Source: Paragemmobacter ruber (GTDB lineage Bacteria > Pseudomonadota > Alphaproteobacteria > Rhodobacterales > Rhodobacteraceae). From it: a DNA stretch of 64,000 bases. The stretch covers positions 1,364,001-1,428,000 of the forward strand of contig NZ_JAAATW010000001.1 in assembly GCF_009908315.1 (NCBI RefSeq), in the 5' to 3' direction. Positions 18,382-54,371 of the stretch are shown here, one piece after another; the first letter of the stretch is position 1; each line of letters opens with the position of its first letter. The notes beneath the pieces are model-generated. The model searched no databases, was not told the origin of the DNA, and saw only the letters and a program-made list of their open reading frames with translations. The translations under genes and the position numbers were made by a program.

Positions 18382-19557
18382 CTAGCGTTCGCGCAACGCT
18401 TCGGATCCGCGCCAGAGCGGTTTGGTCAGGTAGGTGAGGATGGTCTTGCCGCCGGTCTGGAACTCTACCTCGGCCTGCATGCCGGGGCGGATGGCGAGGG
18501 AGCGCTGCCGGTCGGTCAGCGCGTCCTGTTCCACCCGCAGCGTGACGCGGTAATGCGGCTCGGTGTCGCGGCTGCGTTCATCGCGGAAGGTGTCGGCCGA
18601 GACGAAGGTGACGGTGGCGGGCAGCGTGCCCCAGATGGCGTAATCATAGGCCGACAGCTTGATCGTGGCCTTCTGCCCTTCGCGCAGGGGGGCGATATCG
18701 GCGGGTTTCACCTTGGCTTCGACAAAAAGCCCGGTGTCGAGCGGGATGATCTGCAGGATTTCCTCGCCCGGGCGGACGACGCCGCCGATGGTGGTGACGG
18801 CGATGCGGTTGACGATGCCGCGCATGGGCGCGGTGAGGGTGGTGCGCGCCAGTTGATCCTGCGACAGTTTCAGGCGCTGGCGGAGGGAGGCGAGTTCGCC
18901 CTGCGTTTTGGCATAGTCATCGGCGCGGCTGAGATCAGCCTGCGTGGCGATCTCTTCCAGCCGCGCGCGGGCATCGGCAAGCGCCTTTTCGGCGCGGGTC
19001 AGTTCGATTTCCGGGGCAAGGCCACGATCCGCCATGCGGCGGATCATGTCTTCCTCCTGCGCGGCCTGATCCAGCACGGCACGCGCGCCGGACAGGCGGG
19101 AGGCAAGGTCGGTGCGGCGGGCGGTGAGCAGGGCCTGTTCAGAGGCCACGATATCTGGCACGCGGGCGGCCAGATCGGGCGGGGCGGTGAAACTGGCGGC
19201 ATCGGCCTGTTCGGATTCGAGCCTGAGACGGCGGATTTCGAGGGCGGCGATCTGATCGGCCAGATCATCGACGGTGGATTGGTATTGCGTGCCGGAGAGA
19301 CGGGCGAGCACCTGCCCCGCCTCGACGGTATCGCCCTCGGCCACGTTCAACTCGGCCAATATGCCGCCTTCGAGGTTCTGGATGATCTGCGGGCGCGAGG
19401 AGGGGACGATCTGGCCGGGGGCGCGGACGATTTCCTCGACCCATGCAAAGGCGGCCCAGATCAGGAAGGCGGCCACGGTGGCGGCGATCAGGCGCACGGT
19501 CCAGGACGGGTGGCGGGCGCGGCGGTCGAGGGGCGCGTCGAAGGTGGCCATGGTCAT
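18382..19557 (-). CDS. Type I secretion membrane-fusion protein (HlyD family)
   Basis: 391 codons from the ATG at 19557, in an ATGA overlap with the ABC gene. One membrane helix near the N-terminus (about 22-42, VRLIAATVAAFLIWAAFAWV), then the lipoyl half-motifs (APGQIVPSSRPQIIQNLEGGILAELNV and LTAPMRGIVNRI) flanking a long coiled coil (about 95-235), then beta-barrel domains. This is the HlyD/LapC-type adaptor that joins the inner-membrane ABC pump to TolC across the periplasm. It is last in the adhesin-secretion operon. Confidence 0.93.
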   Translation of the reverse strand: MTMATFDAPLDRRARHPSWTVRLIAATVAAFLIWAAFAWVEEIVRAPGQIVPSSRPQIIQNLEGGILAELNVAEGDTVEAGQVLARLSGTQYQSTVDDLADQIAALEIRRLRLESEQADAASFTAPPDLAARVPDIVASEQALLTARRTDLASRLSGARAVLDQAAQEEDMIRRMADRGLAPEIELTRAEKALADARARLEEIATQADLSRADDYAKTQGELASLRQRLKLSQDQLARTTLTAPMRGIVNRIAVTTIGGVVRPGEEILQIIPLDTGLFVEAKVKPADIAPLREGQKATIKLSAYDYAIWGTLPATVTFVSADTFRDERSRDTEPHYRVTLRVEQDALTDRQRSLAIRPGMQAEVEFQTGGKTILTYLTKPLWRGSEALRER

Positions 19558-21779
19558 CTGGCGGCCTTGGCGAGATGGGCCAGCACGGCATTGCGGGGGC
19601 CATCCACGGCGAGGCGGCCGTTCTGCAGGATCAGCGTGCGGGTGGTGAGTTGCAGGATCGGCACGCGGTGGGTGGCGATGATGGCGGTGCGGCCATGAAG
19701 CCAATGCGACAGGCGCGAGACGAGGGTCGCCTCCAGCGTCTGGTCCAGCGCGGCGGTGGGTTCATCCAAAAGCACGATGCGCGGGTTCTGCAACCAGAGC
19801 CGCGCCCAGCCGAGCGATTGGCGTTGGCCCACCGACAGGCCTTCGCCCATTTCGCGAATCTCCAGATCCAGCCCGCGCGGGTGGCCGCGCACGAATTGGC
19901 CCAGACCGGCGAAATCCAGCGCGGCGAGAAGGCGGTCATCGTCGCGTTCCAGATCGGACATGGTGAGGTTGTCGCGCAGCGTGCCGGAGAAGAGCCGCAC
20001 CTCCTGGCCCAGATAGCCGATATGGCGGCGCAGGTCGCGGGGGTGGATCTGCGACAGATCCACCCCATCGAGCATGATGCGCCCTGCCCCGGGCTCGTAG
20101 AGACCGGCAAGCAGTTTCAGAAGCGTGGATTTGCCCGATCCGTTGGCCCCCAGAATGGCGGCGTGCTGACCCGCGGGGATGGCCAGCGCCGGGACATCGA
20201 CGGTGGGCGCGGCGTCGGGGCTGTAGCGGAAGGTGACCTCGCGCAGGTCGAACTGGCCTGAGATGGTTTCGCGGCGCAGGTAGCGGCGGGCGGGGTCTTC
20301 GGCCTGTTGCGATGCGGCGATCGCCTCCAGCCCCGTGAGCGCGGCCTTGACCTGCGACCAGCGGGCTAGGGTGGCGGACAACTGGGTGAGGGGCGCGAGG
20401 GTGCGGGCGGTGAGCATGGAGACGGCGATGATGGTGCCCACGGTGAAGTTGCCCGCGAAGACCATGTAGGTGCCGATCAGGATGACGGCGATATAGGTAG
20501 CCTGTTGCACCGATTGCGCCCACGATCCCAGAAGCGTGGTGAGGTGGCGCTGGTCTGACGCGCGCAGGGCCGAGAGGGCGACGAGTTCCCCCCAGAGACG
20601 GCGCACGCGATCCTGCCCGCGCTGGGTGGTGAGGGTTTCGTGTTCGAAGACCGCCTCATACAGCAGTTTCGCGGCCTTGGTGTTCGCGCCTTGGGTGGAG
20701 TTCGTGAGCGCGACCATGCGGGATTGCAGCAGGAAGCCGGGGGCGACCATGACGATGCCGCCGAGGATGAGGACCCAGACAAGGTTGCCCCCGATCATCG
20801 CGACAAGGGCGAGGAAGATGATCAGAAAGGGCAGATCGGCCAGCGTGCCGATGGTGGAGGCGGTGAAAAACTCGCGCACCGATCCGAAATCGCGCATCGC
20901 GGCGAAAACCTGCGACGGCTGGCGTTCACCCGGGGCGGCCCGCATGCCGAGCAGGCGCTGCATCAGCCTGTCTTGCACGGCCAGTTCAATCTTGCGCCCC
21001 GTGTTGTCCATCAGCGCGGCGCGGGCGATGCGGAGGGCACCATCGAACAGGATGGCCAGAAGCGCACCGAGGGTGAGCACCCAGAGTGTGGGTTCGGATT
21101 GGTTGGGGATCACCCGGTCGTAGATCTGCAGCGCATAGAGGGCGATGGCGGTGGCGAGGATATTGGCGGTGAGAGAGGCGGCGGCGACCTCGATCATCGG
21201 GCGGCGGTGGTGGCGGAATTCGGACCAGAACCAGTGGGGCGCGGCCTCAGGCTCGGCGTGGCGGGCCTCTACTTCCGCAAAGGGGAGGCGGACACGGAGC
21301 ACCCAGCCGCTGTGATGGGCGGCGAATTCCGACAGGGGGACGTCGGCGCTGCGGTCATCGGTGGTGGGATCGTAGATCGACAGGCTATCGCTGTTGCGCG
21401 ACAGGATCAGGACGATCTGGCCCGTGGCCATTTCGGCCAGCGCGGGCAGCGCGCCCAGCGCGGGATCGTGGTCGAGTGCCACGGAATAGCCCGCGCGGCG
21501 GAAGGCGGCGGAGAGGTGATCGAGCCCGGGGCGGTCCGGCGCGCCGGTGGTGGTGAGCAGATCGACGACATCCGAGGTCAGAAGCCGACCGCCCAAGCGC
21601 GACGACAGCATGGCGGCCAGTTCGGCGCGGGCGCGCAGGGGGGCGGGGGCCGGGGCGGGCTGCACGGGCGCGAAGGGCGCGGCGGGGGGCTGGGCCGCGC
21701 GGGCGGGGTGCATGTCGAAGGAGATGACCCTTGGCGCAGAGGGGGGCGGCGTTACAGGCTTTGTCACGGGTTCCGTCAC
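19554..21779 (-). CDS. Type I secretion ABC transporter (LapB-like)
   Basis: 741 codons. A Pro-rich N-terminus (1-50) precedes a C39-peptidase-like domain (about 55-165) without the catalytic Cys, so it binds rather than cuts the substrate, as in LapB/HlyB-type pumps. Six membrane helices follow (about 195-480). The ATPase domain has Walker A GANGSGKST (about 544-552), signature LSVGQ (about 648), Walker B IVLLDEP and the H-loop THR. It energises export of the adhesin encoded upstream. Its start overlaps the TolC gene by four bases and its stop overlaps HlyD by four. Confidence 0.94.
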   Translation of the reverse strand: MTEPVTKPVTPPPSAPRVISFDMHPARAAQPPAAPFAPVQPAPAPAPLRARAELAAMLSSRLGGRLLTSDVVDLLTTTGAPDRPGLDHLSAAFRRAGYSVALDHDPALGALPALAEMATGQIVLILSRNSDSLSIYDPTTDDRSADVPLSEFAAHHSGWVLRVRLPFAEVEARHAEPEAAPHWFWSEFRHHRRPMIEVAAASLTANILATAIALYALQIYDRVIPNQSEPTLWVLTLGALLAILFDGALRIARAALMDNTGRKIELAVQDRLMQRLLGMRAAPGERQPSQVFAAMRDFGSVREFFTASTIGTLADLPFLIIFLALVAMIGGNLVWVLILGGIVMVAPGFLLQSRMVALTNSTQGANTKAAKLLYEAVFEHETLTTQRGQDRVRRLWGELVALSALRASDQRHLTTLLGSWAQSVQQATYIAVILIGTYMVFAGNFTVGTIIAVSMLTARTLAPLTQLSATLARWSQVKAALTGLEAIAASQQAEDPARRYLRRETISGQFDLREVTFRYSPDAAPTVDVPALAIPAGQHAAILGANGSGKSTLLKLLAGLYEPGAGRIMLDGVDLSQIHPRDLRRHIGYLGQEVRLFSGTLRDNLTMSDLERDDDRLLAALDFAGLGQFVRGHPRGLDLEIREMGEGLSVGQRQSLGWARLWLQNPRIVLLDEPTAALDQTLEATLVSRLSHWLHGRTAIIATHRVPILQLTTRTLILQNGRLAVDGPRNAVLAHLAKAAR

Positions 21780-23137
21780 AGGCGGCCCCCGTCGACCAGG
21801 GCGCCTGCGTCGCGGGCCAGTTCCAGCTCCAGCCGGGCGATTTCATAGGGGAAGGCGGCCTGATCGCGTTCCAGCCGTGCGGCGGCGGCGGTCTGGGCGG
21901 TGAGGTCGGTCAGGCTGCGGCGGCCGATGCTGTATTGTTCGACATAGAGTTCGAGGTTGTCGAGCGTCTGACGCAGGACGGCGGCGCCTTCCAAATGGCG
22001 GGTGCGCAACTGGGCGATGCGGCCCTGCAGTTCGGTCGCGCGGCGGGCGGCGGTCTGCTGCGCCTCGGCCGTCTGGCGGGCGACGAGATCGGGGGTGGCA
22101 TCGGCAGCGGCCAGCGTGGCAGGGCTGCCAAGGCCAAGGCGCACGCCGCCAAGGCCAAGGCCGGGGGTGAGGCCATCGTCGGACACCGTGGCATTGGCGG
22201 ACAGGCCGGGCAGGGCATTGGCGCGGGAGATGCGCGCCTCGGCCAGCGCCTTGGCGCCTTTGGCGCGGGCGGCGAGGACGGCGAGCGGTTCGCTGGCCGG
22301 GGGGGCGGGCAGCGGAGTGGTTCCGGTCAGATCCGGCGGCAGGGCGTTGCCGGTGAGCGCGGCGAGATCGGCCAAGGCCTGCGCGCGGGTCTGGGTATCG
22401 GCGGCGAGGGTGGCCTGCATCTCGGCCATGGTCTGGGCGATGATCTGGGCTTCGCTGCGGTCGGACAGGCCGCCCTGGATACGGGCCTGCACGATATCGT
22501 GCAGGTTGGACAGGCGCGTGGCGGCGCGGGCGGCGACGGCGCCCTGCGCGCGGGCCTGTTCGGCGGTGAGGTAATGGGACAGGCCTTCGTGGATGCGGGC
22601 GTTGCGGCGGGTGGCAAGGGTGACGGCGGCGGCGTCCACCTCGGCCGCGGCGCGCGCGCGTTCGGCGGCGCGGCGGCCATGGTCGAGGAGCGGCTGGTCG
22701 ATCACCAGTTGCGCGGCCAGCCCGGCGAGGCTGTCAAGCGTGAGGGCGGGGGTGAGGGTCGGCCAGCGGTTGCTGGCCGCCGCCTCGGCCCGCAGGCGGG
22801 CGAGGCCCAGTTCGGCGGCGTCCGCCCCGGGATCGGCGGCAAGCACCGCATCGGCCACCCGGGCGAAGGGCGTGCCGAGGGCCAGCACCGATGGGCGGGC
22901 GGCCAGATCGGCGATCAGGGGGGAGGCGGCGGTGCCGCTTTCAGGGGCAAGACGCTGGCGCAGGGCGGGATCGGCGGGCGATTGCCCGCGCCCGATGGCC
23001 AGCATCGCGGGCGGCTGCAACCCGCCCTGACAGCCCGAAAGCAGCACCGCCACGGCCAGAAGCGCCCCGAAAGACAGGCGGGGTAAGGTGAGCGGTGCCG
23101 CTCTGGCCGATGGGATGGGATGGCGGGCGGGAACCAT
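21776..23137 (-). CDS. TolC-family outer-membrane channel (lipoprotein)
   Basis: 453 codons. A hydrophobic N-terminus ends in the lipobox LSGC (Cys36), so it is a lipid-anchored outer-membrane protein. The body is Ala/Arg/Gln-rich coiled coil with the internal repeat typical of TolC (AEARISRANALPGLSANA, and the tail TLDNLELYVEQYSIGRRSLTDLTAQTAAAARLERDQAAFPYEIARLEL). It forms the exit duct of the type I system. It starts 11 bases after the adhesin stop codon. Confidence 0.9.
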   Translation of the reverse strand: MVPARHPIPSARAAPLTLPRLSFGALLAVAVLLSGCQGGLQPPAMLAIGRGQSPADPALRQRLAPESGTAASPLIADLAARPSVLALGTPFARVADAVLAADPGADAAELGLARLRAEAAASNRWPTLTPALTLDSLAGLAAQLVIDQPLLDHGRRAAERARAAAEVDAAAVTLATRRNARIHEGLSHYLTAEQARAQGAVAARAATRLSNLHDIVQARIQGGLSDRSEAQIIAQTMAEMQATLAADTQTRAQALADLAALTGNALPPDLTGTTPLPAPPASEPLAVLAARAKGAKALAEARISRANALPGLSANATVSDDGLTPGLGLGGVRLGLGSPATLAAADATPDLVARQTAEAQQTAARRATELQGRIAQLRTRHLEGAAVLRQTLDNLELYVEQYSIGRRSLTDLTAQTAAAARLERDQAAFPYEIARLELELARDAGALVDGGRL

Positions 23138-23148
23138 TACGCCTGCCT

Positions 23149-25122
23149 TCAGATCACCGTTCGCGTCAGATCATCCTCGAGCAGCACCTGCGCGCCCGAA
23201 GAGCCGAGGGTGTAGATGTCGTAGACCGCGCCGTTGACGGTGACGTTCTGCTGCACGCCCGTCACATTGGCGAGGGTGACCTGATCCGTCGCTTCGCCCT
23301 TGATCACCAGCGTCTGGTCCGGGCCGGTGAGGGCGCGGAGCTGGTCTTCGGTGATCGAGAGGCGGGCATCGGGCGCGCGGGTGAGGTCGATCGCCGTAAG
23401 GTCGAAGGCATCGAGCCCGTCGCGGTTAAGATCGACCGACACGCCGGTGGCGGTGTTCTTGATGAAGAGGGTGTTCGCCTCGTTCCCGGCCGCGTCGCGG
23501 GTGTTGATGACAAGGTAGCTGCCATCGGGGACCGTCTGGCCGTTCTGGAAGCGGAAGAGATCCTCGTTCCAGACCGGATCATGGGTTTCGGTCGCCGTCA
23601 GGGCGATGGCGGGGCCGGTCGCATCGACGCGGTGGAAGCTGTAGCTGTCATCGCTGGCCGCGGTGGTCAGGCCGCGCATCGCGCCCGCCACATCCTGCGT
23701 TTCGATCACGGTGGGCGTGCCGGGGGCGACGGTATCCACCCCATAAGTCACGGTGAAGGGGCCGCTGGTGTTGCCTGCCGTATCGGTGGCAGTGACCGAG
23801 ACGGGGATGTTGCTGCGTTCGCCGGTGGGCACCTGATCGGGGGTAAAGGTCAACGACCATTGCCCGGTGTCGCCCACCAGCGCGGTGCGGGTGTGGCCGT
23901 TCATGGTGACGGTGACGGTGGACCCGGCTTCGCCCTGACCCGAGACGGGGAGGCCTGCGCCATGTTCGGTGGCGTTCAGGATGTTGTCCGTGCCGGTGCC
24001 GAGGCGGATGCTGGAGGCGTTGAAATCGGCAACGACCGTGTCGATTGCGATGGTCTGGCTTTGCGGGGGGGCGGTGTTGCCCAGCGCATCGGTCGCGGTG
24101 GCGGTGATCGTGGCGCTGGCGGCGGCGCCCTGCGGCAGGGCGTCGGCCGGCAGGGTGACGCGCCATGTGCCGCCTGCCGTCTGATCAGCGGGGATCGTGG
24201 TCGTCCAGCCGGTTTCGGCCACGGTGATGCGGACGGTGGCGCCGGGTTCCACGGTGCCTTGGGCGATGATACCCGCGTTGCGTTCCACCGCGTTCAGGAC
24301 AGACGGGTCGCGCGGGCCGTCATTGACTGTGCCGGACAGATCGGGGGCGGCGAAGGTGAAGCTGCCGACGGTGGTATCGACGGTGAAGCTGCGGGTTTCG
24401 GTCGCGCTGCGGTTTCCGGCGGTGTCGATGGAATAGGCGGTAAGCGTGCCGCCCTGCGCATCGGTCAGGCCCGCAAGCGCGGCGGGGGTGAAGGTGTAGG
24501 ACCACAGCCCGTTCGCATCGGCGGTGATGGGGCCATGGGCCGTGCCGTTGAGCGCCAGATAGACGGCGGCGCCAGGTTCCGCCGTGCCGTCGAGGGTGAA
24601 GCCCGCGCTACGTTCGGCACCCGACAAGATGCCGTCGGCCCCCACGGGCTGCGGCTCTACCGTGATCGCGGTTTCAAGGTCGATGCGGATGGGGCGCGTA
24701 GCGGTTTCGCTGTTGCCTGCCGCATCCCATGCCGTGACGGTGATCGTGCTGTCGCGGGTGATGCTGCCCGCCGCGCCTGCGGGGAACTGGATGGACCATG
24801 TGCCATCGCCGTTCAGCGTGGCGGGGATGGGTTGGCCGTTCCACTGCACCTCGACCCGCGTGGCATCGGCGGCGGCGGTGCCGCTGAGCGTGAGGGTGCC
24901 GCCCGCCTCGGCCAGGTTCACCACGTTGTCGGTGGCGAAGGGGGCGGGGTTGATGGCGACCGACATTTCCGTGTCGATGTTGATCGTGCGGGTGACGGTG
25001 GTGGGGTTTTCCGCCGCGTCCATCGTGGTGGCGGTGACCGTGCGGGTATAGGTGCCCGGCGGGAAGGTGCCTGCGGGCAGGCTGTGGGACCAGTTGCCGT
25101 TGGCATCCGCCGTCACAGTCAC
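23149..25122 (-). CDS. C-terminal portion of the adhesin (Ig-like repeats and secretion signal)
   Basis: This part downstream of the internal stop stays open in the same frame and could be called separately from a GTG at 25122. It holds six or seven Ig-like repeats of roughly 95 residues, each with the IDT(x)3-8 linker, GTAEPGA core and a D(A/S)xGN ending, then a tail (SITEDQLRALTGPDQTLVIKGE, VTVNGAVYDIYTLGSSGAQVLLEDD) typical of large type I secreted proteins. There is no ribosome site at 25122, so independent translation is doubtful. It is listed because it is intact and under no visible decay. Confidence 0.45.
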   Translation of the reverse strand: MTVTADANGNWSHSLPAGTFPPGTYTRTVTATTMDAAENPTTVTRTINIDTEMSVAINPAPFATDNVVNLAEAGGTLTLSGTAAADATRVEVQWNGQPIPATLNGDGTWSIQFPAGAAGSITRDSTITVTAWDAAGNSETATRPIRIDLETAITVEPQPVGADGILSGAERSAGFTLDGTAEPGAAVYLALNGTAHGPITADANGLWSYTFTPAALAGLTDAQGGTLTAYSIDTAGNRSATETRSFTVDTTVGSFTFAAPDLSGTVNDGPRDPSVLNAVERNAGIIAQGTVEPGATVRITVAETGWTTTIPADQTAGGTWRVTLPADALPQGAAASATITATATDALGNTAPPQSQTIAIDTVVADFNASSIRLGTGTDNILNATEHGAGLPVSGQGEAGSTVTVTMNGHTRTALVGDTGQWSLTFTPDQVPTGERSNIPVSVTATDTAGNTSGPFTVTYGVDTVAPGTPTVIETQDVAGAMRGLTTAASDDSYSFHRVDATGPAIALTATETHDPVWNEDLFRFQNGQTVPDGSYLVINTRDAAGNEANTLFIKNTATGVSVDLNRDGLDAFDLTAIDLTRAPDARLSITEDQLRALTGPDQTLVIKGEATDQVTLANVTGVQQNVTVNGAVYDIYTLGSSGAQVLLEDDLTRTVI

Positions 25123-25383
25123 GGTTCCGGCGATGCCTTCGATGGCCAGCGTGACGGTGGTGTTGGCGGTCGCCGTGCCGCCGATGGTGAGGGCGGACTG
25201 GCTTTCCGTTCGGTTGATGAGGTTGTCGCCCGCGATGGCATTGACCGCGAGCGGCGGGGCGATGGTATCGAGGACGATGGTTTCGGTGATGCTGCGCGTG
25301 TTGCCGAGCGGGTCGGTCGCGACAATGGTGACGGTCTGGCTACGCTCGCCGCCCGCGATTTCCTGCGGGGTGAGGGTGAGGGT

Positions 25384-26421
25384 TCATGTGCCATCGGCAT
25401 CGACCGTGGCAGGGCGGGTGATGGCGTCGGGCGTGCCGGGGGTGCCAAGCGTGACATTGACCGTGGCGCCCGGTTCGGTGGTGCCGCCGATCGTGACGCC
25501 ATCGGCGTATTCAGCAAGGTTTTCGACATCGCCCGAGGATTGCACGCCATCGGTGGCGGCCACGGGGGGTGGCGTCATGTCGATGACGAAGGCGCCGCCT
25601 GTCAGCGTGGCGGTGGTCCCGTTGCCGGTGAAGACGGCGGTGGCGGTGTGGGTGCCGTCGGCGGGCAGGGTGGGGCCAGAGAAGCCCGCCGTCCATGTGC
25701 CATCGGCGGCAACCGTGACGGTCTGGGTCTGGGTGCCGATGGTGACGGCGACGCTGTCGCCCGGCTGGCCGGTGCCGGTGACGGTGATCGCGGGCGTGTC
25801 TGTGTTCGTGGTGATGGTGGTGGTGGTGCCATTGCCATCAATGCTGCGGGTATAGGTGGGGCCGCCGCCGCCACCACCGCCACCACCACCACCACCACCG
25901 CCACCGATGATGACCCCGCCGCCCACGATCGCGGCCCCGGCCAGACCGGCGCCGCCCCAGCCCAGCAGGGCGGGGGCGAAGATGCCCATGCCGGCGGGAT
26001 CTTCTTCGCCCGTGCCGGCGAGGGTGACGACGGGATCGCCATCGTCGAAGCGCAGATCGTCGAGCGGGCTCCACTTCTCGGCCCCGGCGGCGAGCGAGAA
26101 GTTCGCTGCCAGCACGCCGTTTCCGGCATCGGAGAGCTGCACCTCGGTCACCATGCCATCGCTGGAGAGGTAGAGGCGGTTGGGGTTATCGGCGGGGGCG
26201 TCGAACCAGTCGGCCACGGTGATGGTGCGCCCGTCGGACAGTTCGATCAGCAGGTCGTTGCCCTGCCGGGTATAGCCGATCACGCTTTGCGGCGTGAGGT
26301 TCAGCGACAGGCTGTCGCCCAGGCCTGACTGAATGAAGCTGCTTTCGCCTGCGCCTGCCACATGGCCGTAGGTCGTGCCGCCCGCAGCCGTGCGGACGGC
26401 GAAATCAATCGCCGAACTCAT
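25384..26421 (-). CDS. N-terminal portion of the adhesin (translated up to the TGA)
   Basis: 345 sense codons from the ATG at 26421. The first 120 residues form a BapA-prefix-like beta domain (SVIGYTRQGNDLLIELSDGRTITVADWF), followed by an acidic linker, a hydrophobic Gly/Ala segment (GIFAPALLGWGGAGLAGAAIVGGG) and 15 consecutive Gly, then the first two Ig-like repeats. LAAG at residues 110-113 resembles the AAG sites cut by LapG-type proteases, at about the right distance from the N-terminus. Ends at the premature TGA. Confidence 0.6.
   Translation of the reverse strand: MSSAIDFAVRTAAGGTTYGHVAGAGESSFIQSGLGDSLSLNLTPQSVIGYTRQGNDLLIELSDGRTITVADWFDAPADNPNRLYLSSDGMVTEVQLSDAGNGVLAANFSLAAGAEKWSPLDDLRFDDGDPVVTLAGTGEEDPAGMGIFAPALLGWGGAGLAGAAIVGGGVIIGGGGGGGGGGGGGGGPTYTRSIDGNGTTTTITTNTDTPAITVTGTGQPGDSVAVTIGTQTQTVTVAADGTWTAGFSGPTLPADGTHTATAVFTGNGTTATLTGGAFVIDMTPPPVAATDGVQSSGDVENLAEYADGVTIGGTTEPGATVNVTLGTPGTPDAITRPATVDADGT
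25861..25905. repeat. Trinucleotide repeat encoding 15 glycines
   Basis: Fifteen GCC/ACC triplets on the plus strand (GGC/GGT codons on the minus) encode the poly-Gly linker of the adhesin. Length changes would stay in frame, so it could vary linker length but not switch the gene off. Confidence 0.85.
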
Positions 26422-26629
26422 TACATCTTCTCCGCCTCAACCGCCGGAAAATGTGCCGGCGCACCGCTCTTGATTGGCCCTATTTGTGGGCCTTGCAAAA
26501 ACGCATAGCCTTAAACCGGCCACATTTCCAGCACTTTTCGAACATGTTCCCGGGAAGGTTGCGGCCTGCGGGTTGGCTATGGCGAAAATGACTCAGTCTG
26601 CGACGGGATGGGCCGCGACGGGACGGGGA

Positions 26630-27628
<999 letters not shown>

Positions 27629-53729: not shown

Positions 53730-54371
53730 TCAGGAACCGCTGCCGCCCATGATCCCGCCGGCAAGGACGGATACCCAGCGTGTGGGCTGGCGCGGGTCCT
53801 GCATCCGCAGGAAGGTGTAGCCGGTCTTGTTCCACGGCACGATGCGGCTGGTCAGATTGTCGAGCACCAGATCCTGCGCCCCGGTGCGCAGCACCAGAAC
53901 GGCATGGGATTGGCGCTTGCGGTCCAGCACGGTGGCGATCAGCAACTGTTCGGGCGGGAAGCCCGCCTTGATCAGTTCAAGCTTCTTGTAGATCGCGTAA
54001 TCCTCGCAATCGCCGCCGCGCGCCGTGGGCAGGGCCCAGCGTTCAGCAACCCGGTATTGCTGCATGTCGCTGATGGAACGGACGCTGCGATTGGCGCGCG
54101 CGTTGATGGCGCGGACAACATCCATCGCTGCGGCGTCGATCGCCATCCGGCGCCCGGTGCTGGCGCAGGCCCAGTCGAGCGTCTGGCACAGGTGGCTGGC
54201 ACCCGCAGGCGCGGCGGCCGCGCCGCGGATCGGCACCATCGCCGCATCGGGGCGGCGCGCATCCACGGCGCCCGCGGGCGGTGTGGCGGCAAGAACCCCC
54301 GCCAGAGCAAGCGAGGCAACGCCAAGGCGGCGCGCAAGCCCGTGGCGAAGGCGAACTCCGTCTCTTTGCAT
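53730..54371 (-). CDS. Transglutaminase-like cysteine protease (LapG/BTLCP family)
   Basis: 213 codons. A signal peptide (about 13-36, ending AGA-V) precedes a BTLCP domain with the full triad: Cys122 in GGDCEDYA, His156 in QSHAVL and Asp171 in LDNL. In LapG the same fold cuts a large type I secreted adhesin near its N-terminus in the periplasm. The window contains such an adhesin 28 kb away with an LAAG sequence at residues 110-113. Whether this enzyme cuts it is inference. Confidence 0.85.
   Translation of the reverse strand: MQRDGVRLRHGLARRLGVASLALAGVLAATPPAGAVDARRPDAAMVPIRGAAAAPAGASHLCQTLDWACASTGRRMAIDAAAMDVVRAINARANRSVRSISDMQQYRVAERWALPTARGGDCEDYAIYKKLELIKAGFPPEQLLIATVLDRKRQSHAVLVLRTGAQDLVLDNLTSRIVPWNKTGYTFLRMQDPRQPTRWVSVLAGGIMGGSGS

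Follow-up and report, generated by a model that had tools for sequence, protein, structure and literature searches.

The window, that is, the whole 64,000-nucleotide stretch of Paragemmobacter ruber DNA that was analyzed, contains a long adhesin frame crossed by a single in-frame TGA, which raises the question of whether the gene was recently inactivated in the sequenced strain, is still expressed through or beyond the stop, or is intact in the organism and misrepresented in the assembly. Minus-strand translation of positions 26421–23149 gave 345 codons, a TGA, 744 codons and a second TGA, with zero additional in-frame stops in the 744 codons 3' of the internal one (Table 1). The locus probably represents a BapA-like type I secretion operon whose adhesin gene was, in the sequenced strain, recently hit by a nonsense mutation.

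Table 1. Features of the adhesin locus, in window coordinates.
Feature	Position	Strand	Evidence
Complete adhesin frame (1,091 codons, counting the internal and the terminal TGA)	23149..26421	-	
In-frame TGA, codon 346	25384..25386	-	TGG in 17/17 orthologues with the column (19 fetched)
Shine-Dalgarno-like GGAG, 8 bases 5' of the ATG at 26421-26419	26430..26433	-	Sequence reading
N-terminal piece before the stop, 345 aa	25384..26421	-	Pfam and NCBIfam profiles
Post-stop frame, 744 codons and final TGA	23149..25383	-	Ca2+-stabilised Ig-like repeats, conserved C-terminus
Outer-membrane efflux (TolC-like) protein	21776..23137	-	Pfam OEP, E 3.2e-09; syntenic orthologues
Type I secretion ABC transporter, LssB-like	19554..21779	-	TIGR03375, E 9.8e-201; syntenic orthologues
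HlyD-type periplasmic adaptor	18382..19704	-	TIGR01843, E 2.1e-93, above cut-off

The piece preceding the stop consisted of a BapA prefix-like domain, a poly-glycine linker, the first Ig-like repeat and part of the second. The prefix domain was recognized by Pfam BapA_N (E = 8.9e-08, 32.3 bits, above the cut-off of 27) and, slightly below the cut-off of 35, by NCBIfam biofilm_BapA_N (34.2 bits); Big_13 and Big_6 (Pfam) and Ca_tandemer (NCBIfam) were all below cut-off in this piece. The linker 3' of the prefix domain comprises 15 Gly (25861–25905, minus strand), and the longest Gly run in the listed orthologues ranged from 4 to 22. In the first-pass annotation, the frame was described as open on either side of the TGA, and this was borne out: repeat profiles matched on both sides, orthologues aligned through the stop, and repeat homology was not lost after it, the post-stop Ig-like repeats matching strongly to Ca_tandemer (NCBIfam; E = 3e-79, 261.5 bits, cut-off 50), Big_13 (Pfam; E = 8.9e-34, 116.5 bits, cut-off 27) and Ig_like_ice (NCBIfam; E = 1.6e-33). 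The best-matching solved structures for alignment profile A1 were the MpAFP_RII tetra-tandemer (4p99; E = 1.4e-48) and the RTX-adhesin 5irb (E = 1.1e-20), the likeness to both being confined to the repeats in this profile comparison; the RTX nonapeptide family was absent among the Pfam and NCBIfam profile matches of the adhesin. A 1,077-aa open frame also runs antisense to the adhesin (23095–26328, plus strand) and looks like a mirror of the G+C-rich coding sequence rather than a gene.

Trp was present at the equivalent motif position in six other repeats (residues 243, 444, 542, 640, 753 and 855, picked by eye from the Trp list of the window protein), in agreement with the earlier statement that every comparable repeat carries Trp there. 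When the orthologous L051 segment was modelled from a four-sequence alignment (mean pLDDT 68.8, about 81 near the site), the equivalent Trp (residue 145) lay in the strand 144–149, after three strands of the domain. Consequently, the truncated product is predicted to end in the middle of a beta-sandwich domain.

An adhesin match was found in 18 of the 19 genomes of the genus, the own genome counted, and not in G004 (1.5 Mb); among these 18 genomes, only the own genome had a stop inside the match. The comparison of orthologous loci proposed in the first-pass annotation covered 19 fetched orthologues, 17 from the same genus and two from the same family, and since the closest was 81% identical, it extends over other species alone. 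Seventeen of the orthologues have the column of codon 346, every one with TGG. A TGG-to-TGA change as the interrupting lesion thus holds against all comparable orthologous codons, and a single G-to-A transition, as had been supposed, is the simplest change that accounts for it. The two orthologues with a gap at this column, those of G003 (L047) and G013 (L048), are about 900 aa long and are missing the repeat concerned, which indicates that repeat number varies across the genus.

A second broken copy was found in G012, an 87%-complete draft, where a frameshift at six consecutive C in the TPP motif near residue 285 (about 1885–1895 in L039) divides the orthologue (L039); slippage at this run or an assembly error could account for it. 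Runs of six to eight C are present at the equivalent TPP motif in the window, G014, G005 and G017. Overall, two of the 18 genomes of the genus in which the adhesin was matched have a broken copy, by different lesions (the TGA here and the frameshift in G012).

The TolC-like gene begins shortly after the final stop of the adhesin and is followed by the ABC transporter and HlyD genes. The ABC transporter scored 668.6 bits with TIGR03375, below the cut-off of 693.1, and the listed TTG start of the HlyD gene is probably too early, because matches in relatives start at residues 28–52. The export genes had been regarded as intact, and in fact all three have open frames, with syntenic orthologues in G001, G018 and G006 that are 82–96% identical (in G001, the HlyD gene lies beyond the contig end and is outside this comparison). 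All three were matched in the same order beside the adhesin in 15 of the 17 same-genus loci; the exceptions, G001 without an HlyD match and G009 without an ABC or HlyD match, are both at contig ends. In the two same-family loci, the ABC and HlyD genes were matched, and the outer-membrane protein gene was not at E = 1e-15. On the other flank, a sugar-transport ATPase gene (26630–27628) was found in 14 of the 17 same-genus loci at an identity of at least 80%, and was not shown in G015, G009 and G016.

This layout resembles that of the biofilm adhesin system of Paracoccus denitrificans, of which the published description (PMC5588039) states that the adhesin gene bapA lies directly upstream of three type I secretion genes, encoding an ABC transporter (bapB), a fusion protein (bapC) and an outer-membrane protein (bapD); that BapA, a protein of 2,211 aa with 891 Asp-Ala repeats, is type I secreted and required for normal biofilm formation; and that biofilm formation is severely impaired in mutants lacking bapA or bapBCD. 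The likeness, which concerns an adhesin gene followed by three export genes, was drawn from such descriptions; in P. ruber, by contrast, the middle part of the protein is Ig-like, the gene order is outer-membrane protein, ABC and HlyD, and the adhesin is interrupted. The locus has the BapA prefix-like domain, the tandem Ca2+-stabilised Ig-like repeats and the adjacent type I secretion genes of such operons, whereas a full-length adhesin frame is absent from the own genome; it is an interrupted member of the BapA-like adhesin operons, not a working one. Among publications on adhesin pseudogenes or nonsense mutations and on Paragemmobacter, no title referring to this locus was found in a non-exhaustive search at the title level.

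Adhesins controlled by the LapA/LapG/LapD system likewise combine a repeat adhesin with type I export genes, and a LapG-like protease may act on an adhesin of such a type. Two C93 (LapG-like) cysteine proteases were detected in the genome, one within the window (53730–54371, minus strand) and the other at G000:C1:512020-512484.

With a single lesion, an otherwise conserved frame and open orthologues, the adhesin has the features of a pseudogene formed by a recent nonsense mutation. Under neutrality, the post-stop frame would acquire an additional stop with 95% probability after 0.075–0.086 substitutions per site, and dS on the window branch was about 0.31; since no additional stop is present, the lesion is estimated to have arisen within about the last quarter of the branch. 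In the two triples that gave the main figures (G017 as outgroup), downstream dN/dS on the window branch was 0.22 (0.15–0.32) and 0.28 (0.20–0.43), against 0.25 and 0.28 on the sister branches, values equally compatible with a very young lesion and with continued translation of the frame. Before the stop, dN/dS was slightly higher in the window (0.18 and 0.16) than in the sisters (0.10 and 0.11), with overlapping intervals. The least favourable number came from a third triple (G001, G018), with a downstream dN/dS of 0.33 in the window versus 0.08 in the sister; this triple was not used for polarity because the tree places the window outside the G001/G018 pair. At the 472 columns invariant in seven relatives, the window differed at 2 of 166 upstream and 10 of 305 downstream positions; the same treatment gave 5 of 169 and 16 of 311 for G017, and 2 of 166 and 3 of 298 for G001. 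Thus, the mutation is either of recent date or lies in a frame that remains in use, and the first alternative is the simpler.

Three further possibilities were considered and rejected. Against four relatives, changes unique to the window at codons 342, 348 and 350 seemed to cluster around the stop at codon 346 (three further changes at most 4 codons away, p about 0.001; a cluster of this kind anywhere in the gene, p about 0.02); when seven relatives were used and invariant columns alone were counted, a single other change remained within 5 codons of the stop (p = 0.07), and a mutation cluster was no longer assumed. Gene conversion from elsewhere was dismissed, as the post-stop 15-mer is single-copy in the genome and no donor was seen. 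A second adhesin of this type was not accepted, the own genome yielding one match with E = 0.001.

An artefact, in which the TGA would stem from faulty base calling, misassembly or the consensus of a mixed population while the organism itself has an intact gene, is unlikely, though by no means negligibly so. One base alone is at odds with the remainder of the frame, which is open, and the genome is a draft of 23 contigs; six of the 11 named loci are metagenome-assembled, including L051 and L052 from the closest relatives, so the own genome may be metagenome-assembled too. However, the site of the TGA lies outside any homopolymer, and a survey of 400 kb (about a tenth of the genome) against G006 brought up no further convincing case of an internal stop or frameshift among 252 conserved genes, these being the frames out of 331 chosen from G006 that passed at an identity of at least 60% and a coverage of at least 80%, stops being counted from 10% to 92% of the length. 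If errors are taken to occur at 1e-5 per base, about 4 would be expected in 400 kb; <2% of them would create a stop in sequence of this kind, hence <0.1 expected. The raw listing of the survey contained 10 internal stops in nine frames and five frame splits, the adhesin stop being one of the entries. The others were set aside: g53 is a MutM-like gene with a false upstream extension, and g207 and g265 have false 5' extensions (all by eye); g153 and g154 lie opposite or upstream of open genes with Pfam matches; and g24, g75, g87, g196, g299 and g317 have low identity at one or both sides of the stop, as judged from the survey listing alone. In the reverse comparison of 258 own frames with G006, the raw listing contained 18 internal stops and one split, figures that are not taken as a background rate for G006. 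Genome-wide low quality is thus unsupported by the survey, and the presence of a sole convincing stop among 252 genes makes poor sequence quality improbable. In our judgement, a real mutation is considerably to be preferred over an artefact. Of the three readings offered by the first-pass annotation, recent loss was therefore retained, in keeping with the lack of a second stop, the sister-like dN/dS and the operon context, and sequencing error became less likely.

The remaining reading of that annotation, a read-through switch, gained no support and is considered very unlikely. According to it, UGA read-through would supply a small amount of full-length adhesin, or the population would switch between TGA and TGG alleles. 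UGA is the leakiest stop in bacteria, and the downstream frame is open and under about the same constraint as in relatives; on the other hand, TGG at every comparable orthologous codon means that there is no conserved recoding site, and no unusual structure is predicted for the 100 nt that follow the stop, whose fold is slightly less stable than that of shuffles (z = +0.97). RF2 is present, above cut-off. The one tRNA-Trp found has the anticodon CCA (8 of 28 anticodon-arm pattern matches examined); no SelB was above cut-off (best 98.1 bits versus 242.25); and two tRNA-Sec matches above cut-off, from a model that also fires in 14 of 14 control genomes, were tRNA-Ser by ARAGORN (8 of 12 matches examined). 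In this partial survey (8 of 28 anticodon-arm and 8 of 12 tRNA-Sec-model matches), neither a UGA-reading tRNA nor selenocysteine machinery was found. It is equally improbable that a population alternating between adhesive and free-living states tolerates the TGA, a leaky UGA or frequent reversion leaving it with full-length adhesin in low or variable amounts, and that the gene is a recurrent target of loss in this genus, where G012 shows a different lesion.

A split gene, whose downstream part would have its own start and encode a shorter, exported adhesin lacking the N-terminal prefix domain, is scarcely credible: an in-frame GTG at codon 434 would yield 657 aa (25122–23149) with the C-terminus kept, but the first in-frame start is 88 codons beyond the stop, Shine-Dalgarno matches are weak at the six in-frame starts from codon 347 to codon 520 (the best, 4 of 6, lying 13 bases before the codon-434 GTG), and no sigma-70-like promoter was found in 22900–26700, which is weak evidence with 0.3 expected by chance.

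If the adhesin gene has been interrupted by a recent nonsense mutation, translation would stop after residue 345, within the second Ig-like domain, and the short product would retain the N-terminal prefix domain and lose the C-terminal end. Type I substrates carry their export signal at the C-terminal end; because this end is lost, the truncated product is probably not exported. No surface adhesin would then be expected from the gene, and the strain would attach poorly by means of this adhesin. In addition, 2.2 kb of untranslated message may lower the expression of the exporter genes through Rho-dependent polarity. The loss of a surface adhesin through a point mutation is a familiar event, and the present case is otherwise an ordinary one. 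If real, it provides a clean example of a biofilm-type adhesin that has just been broken and whose exporter genes are still present, and the sequenced strain may adhere differently from its relatives.
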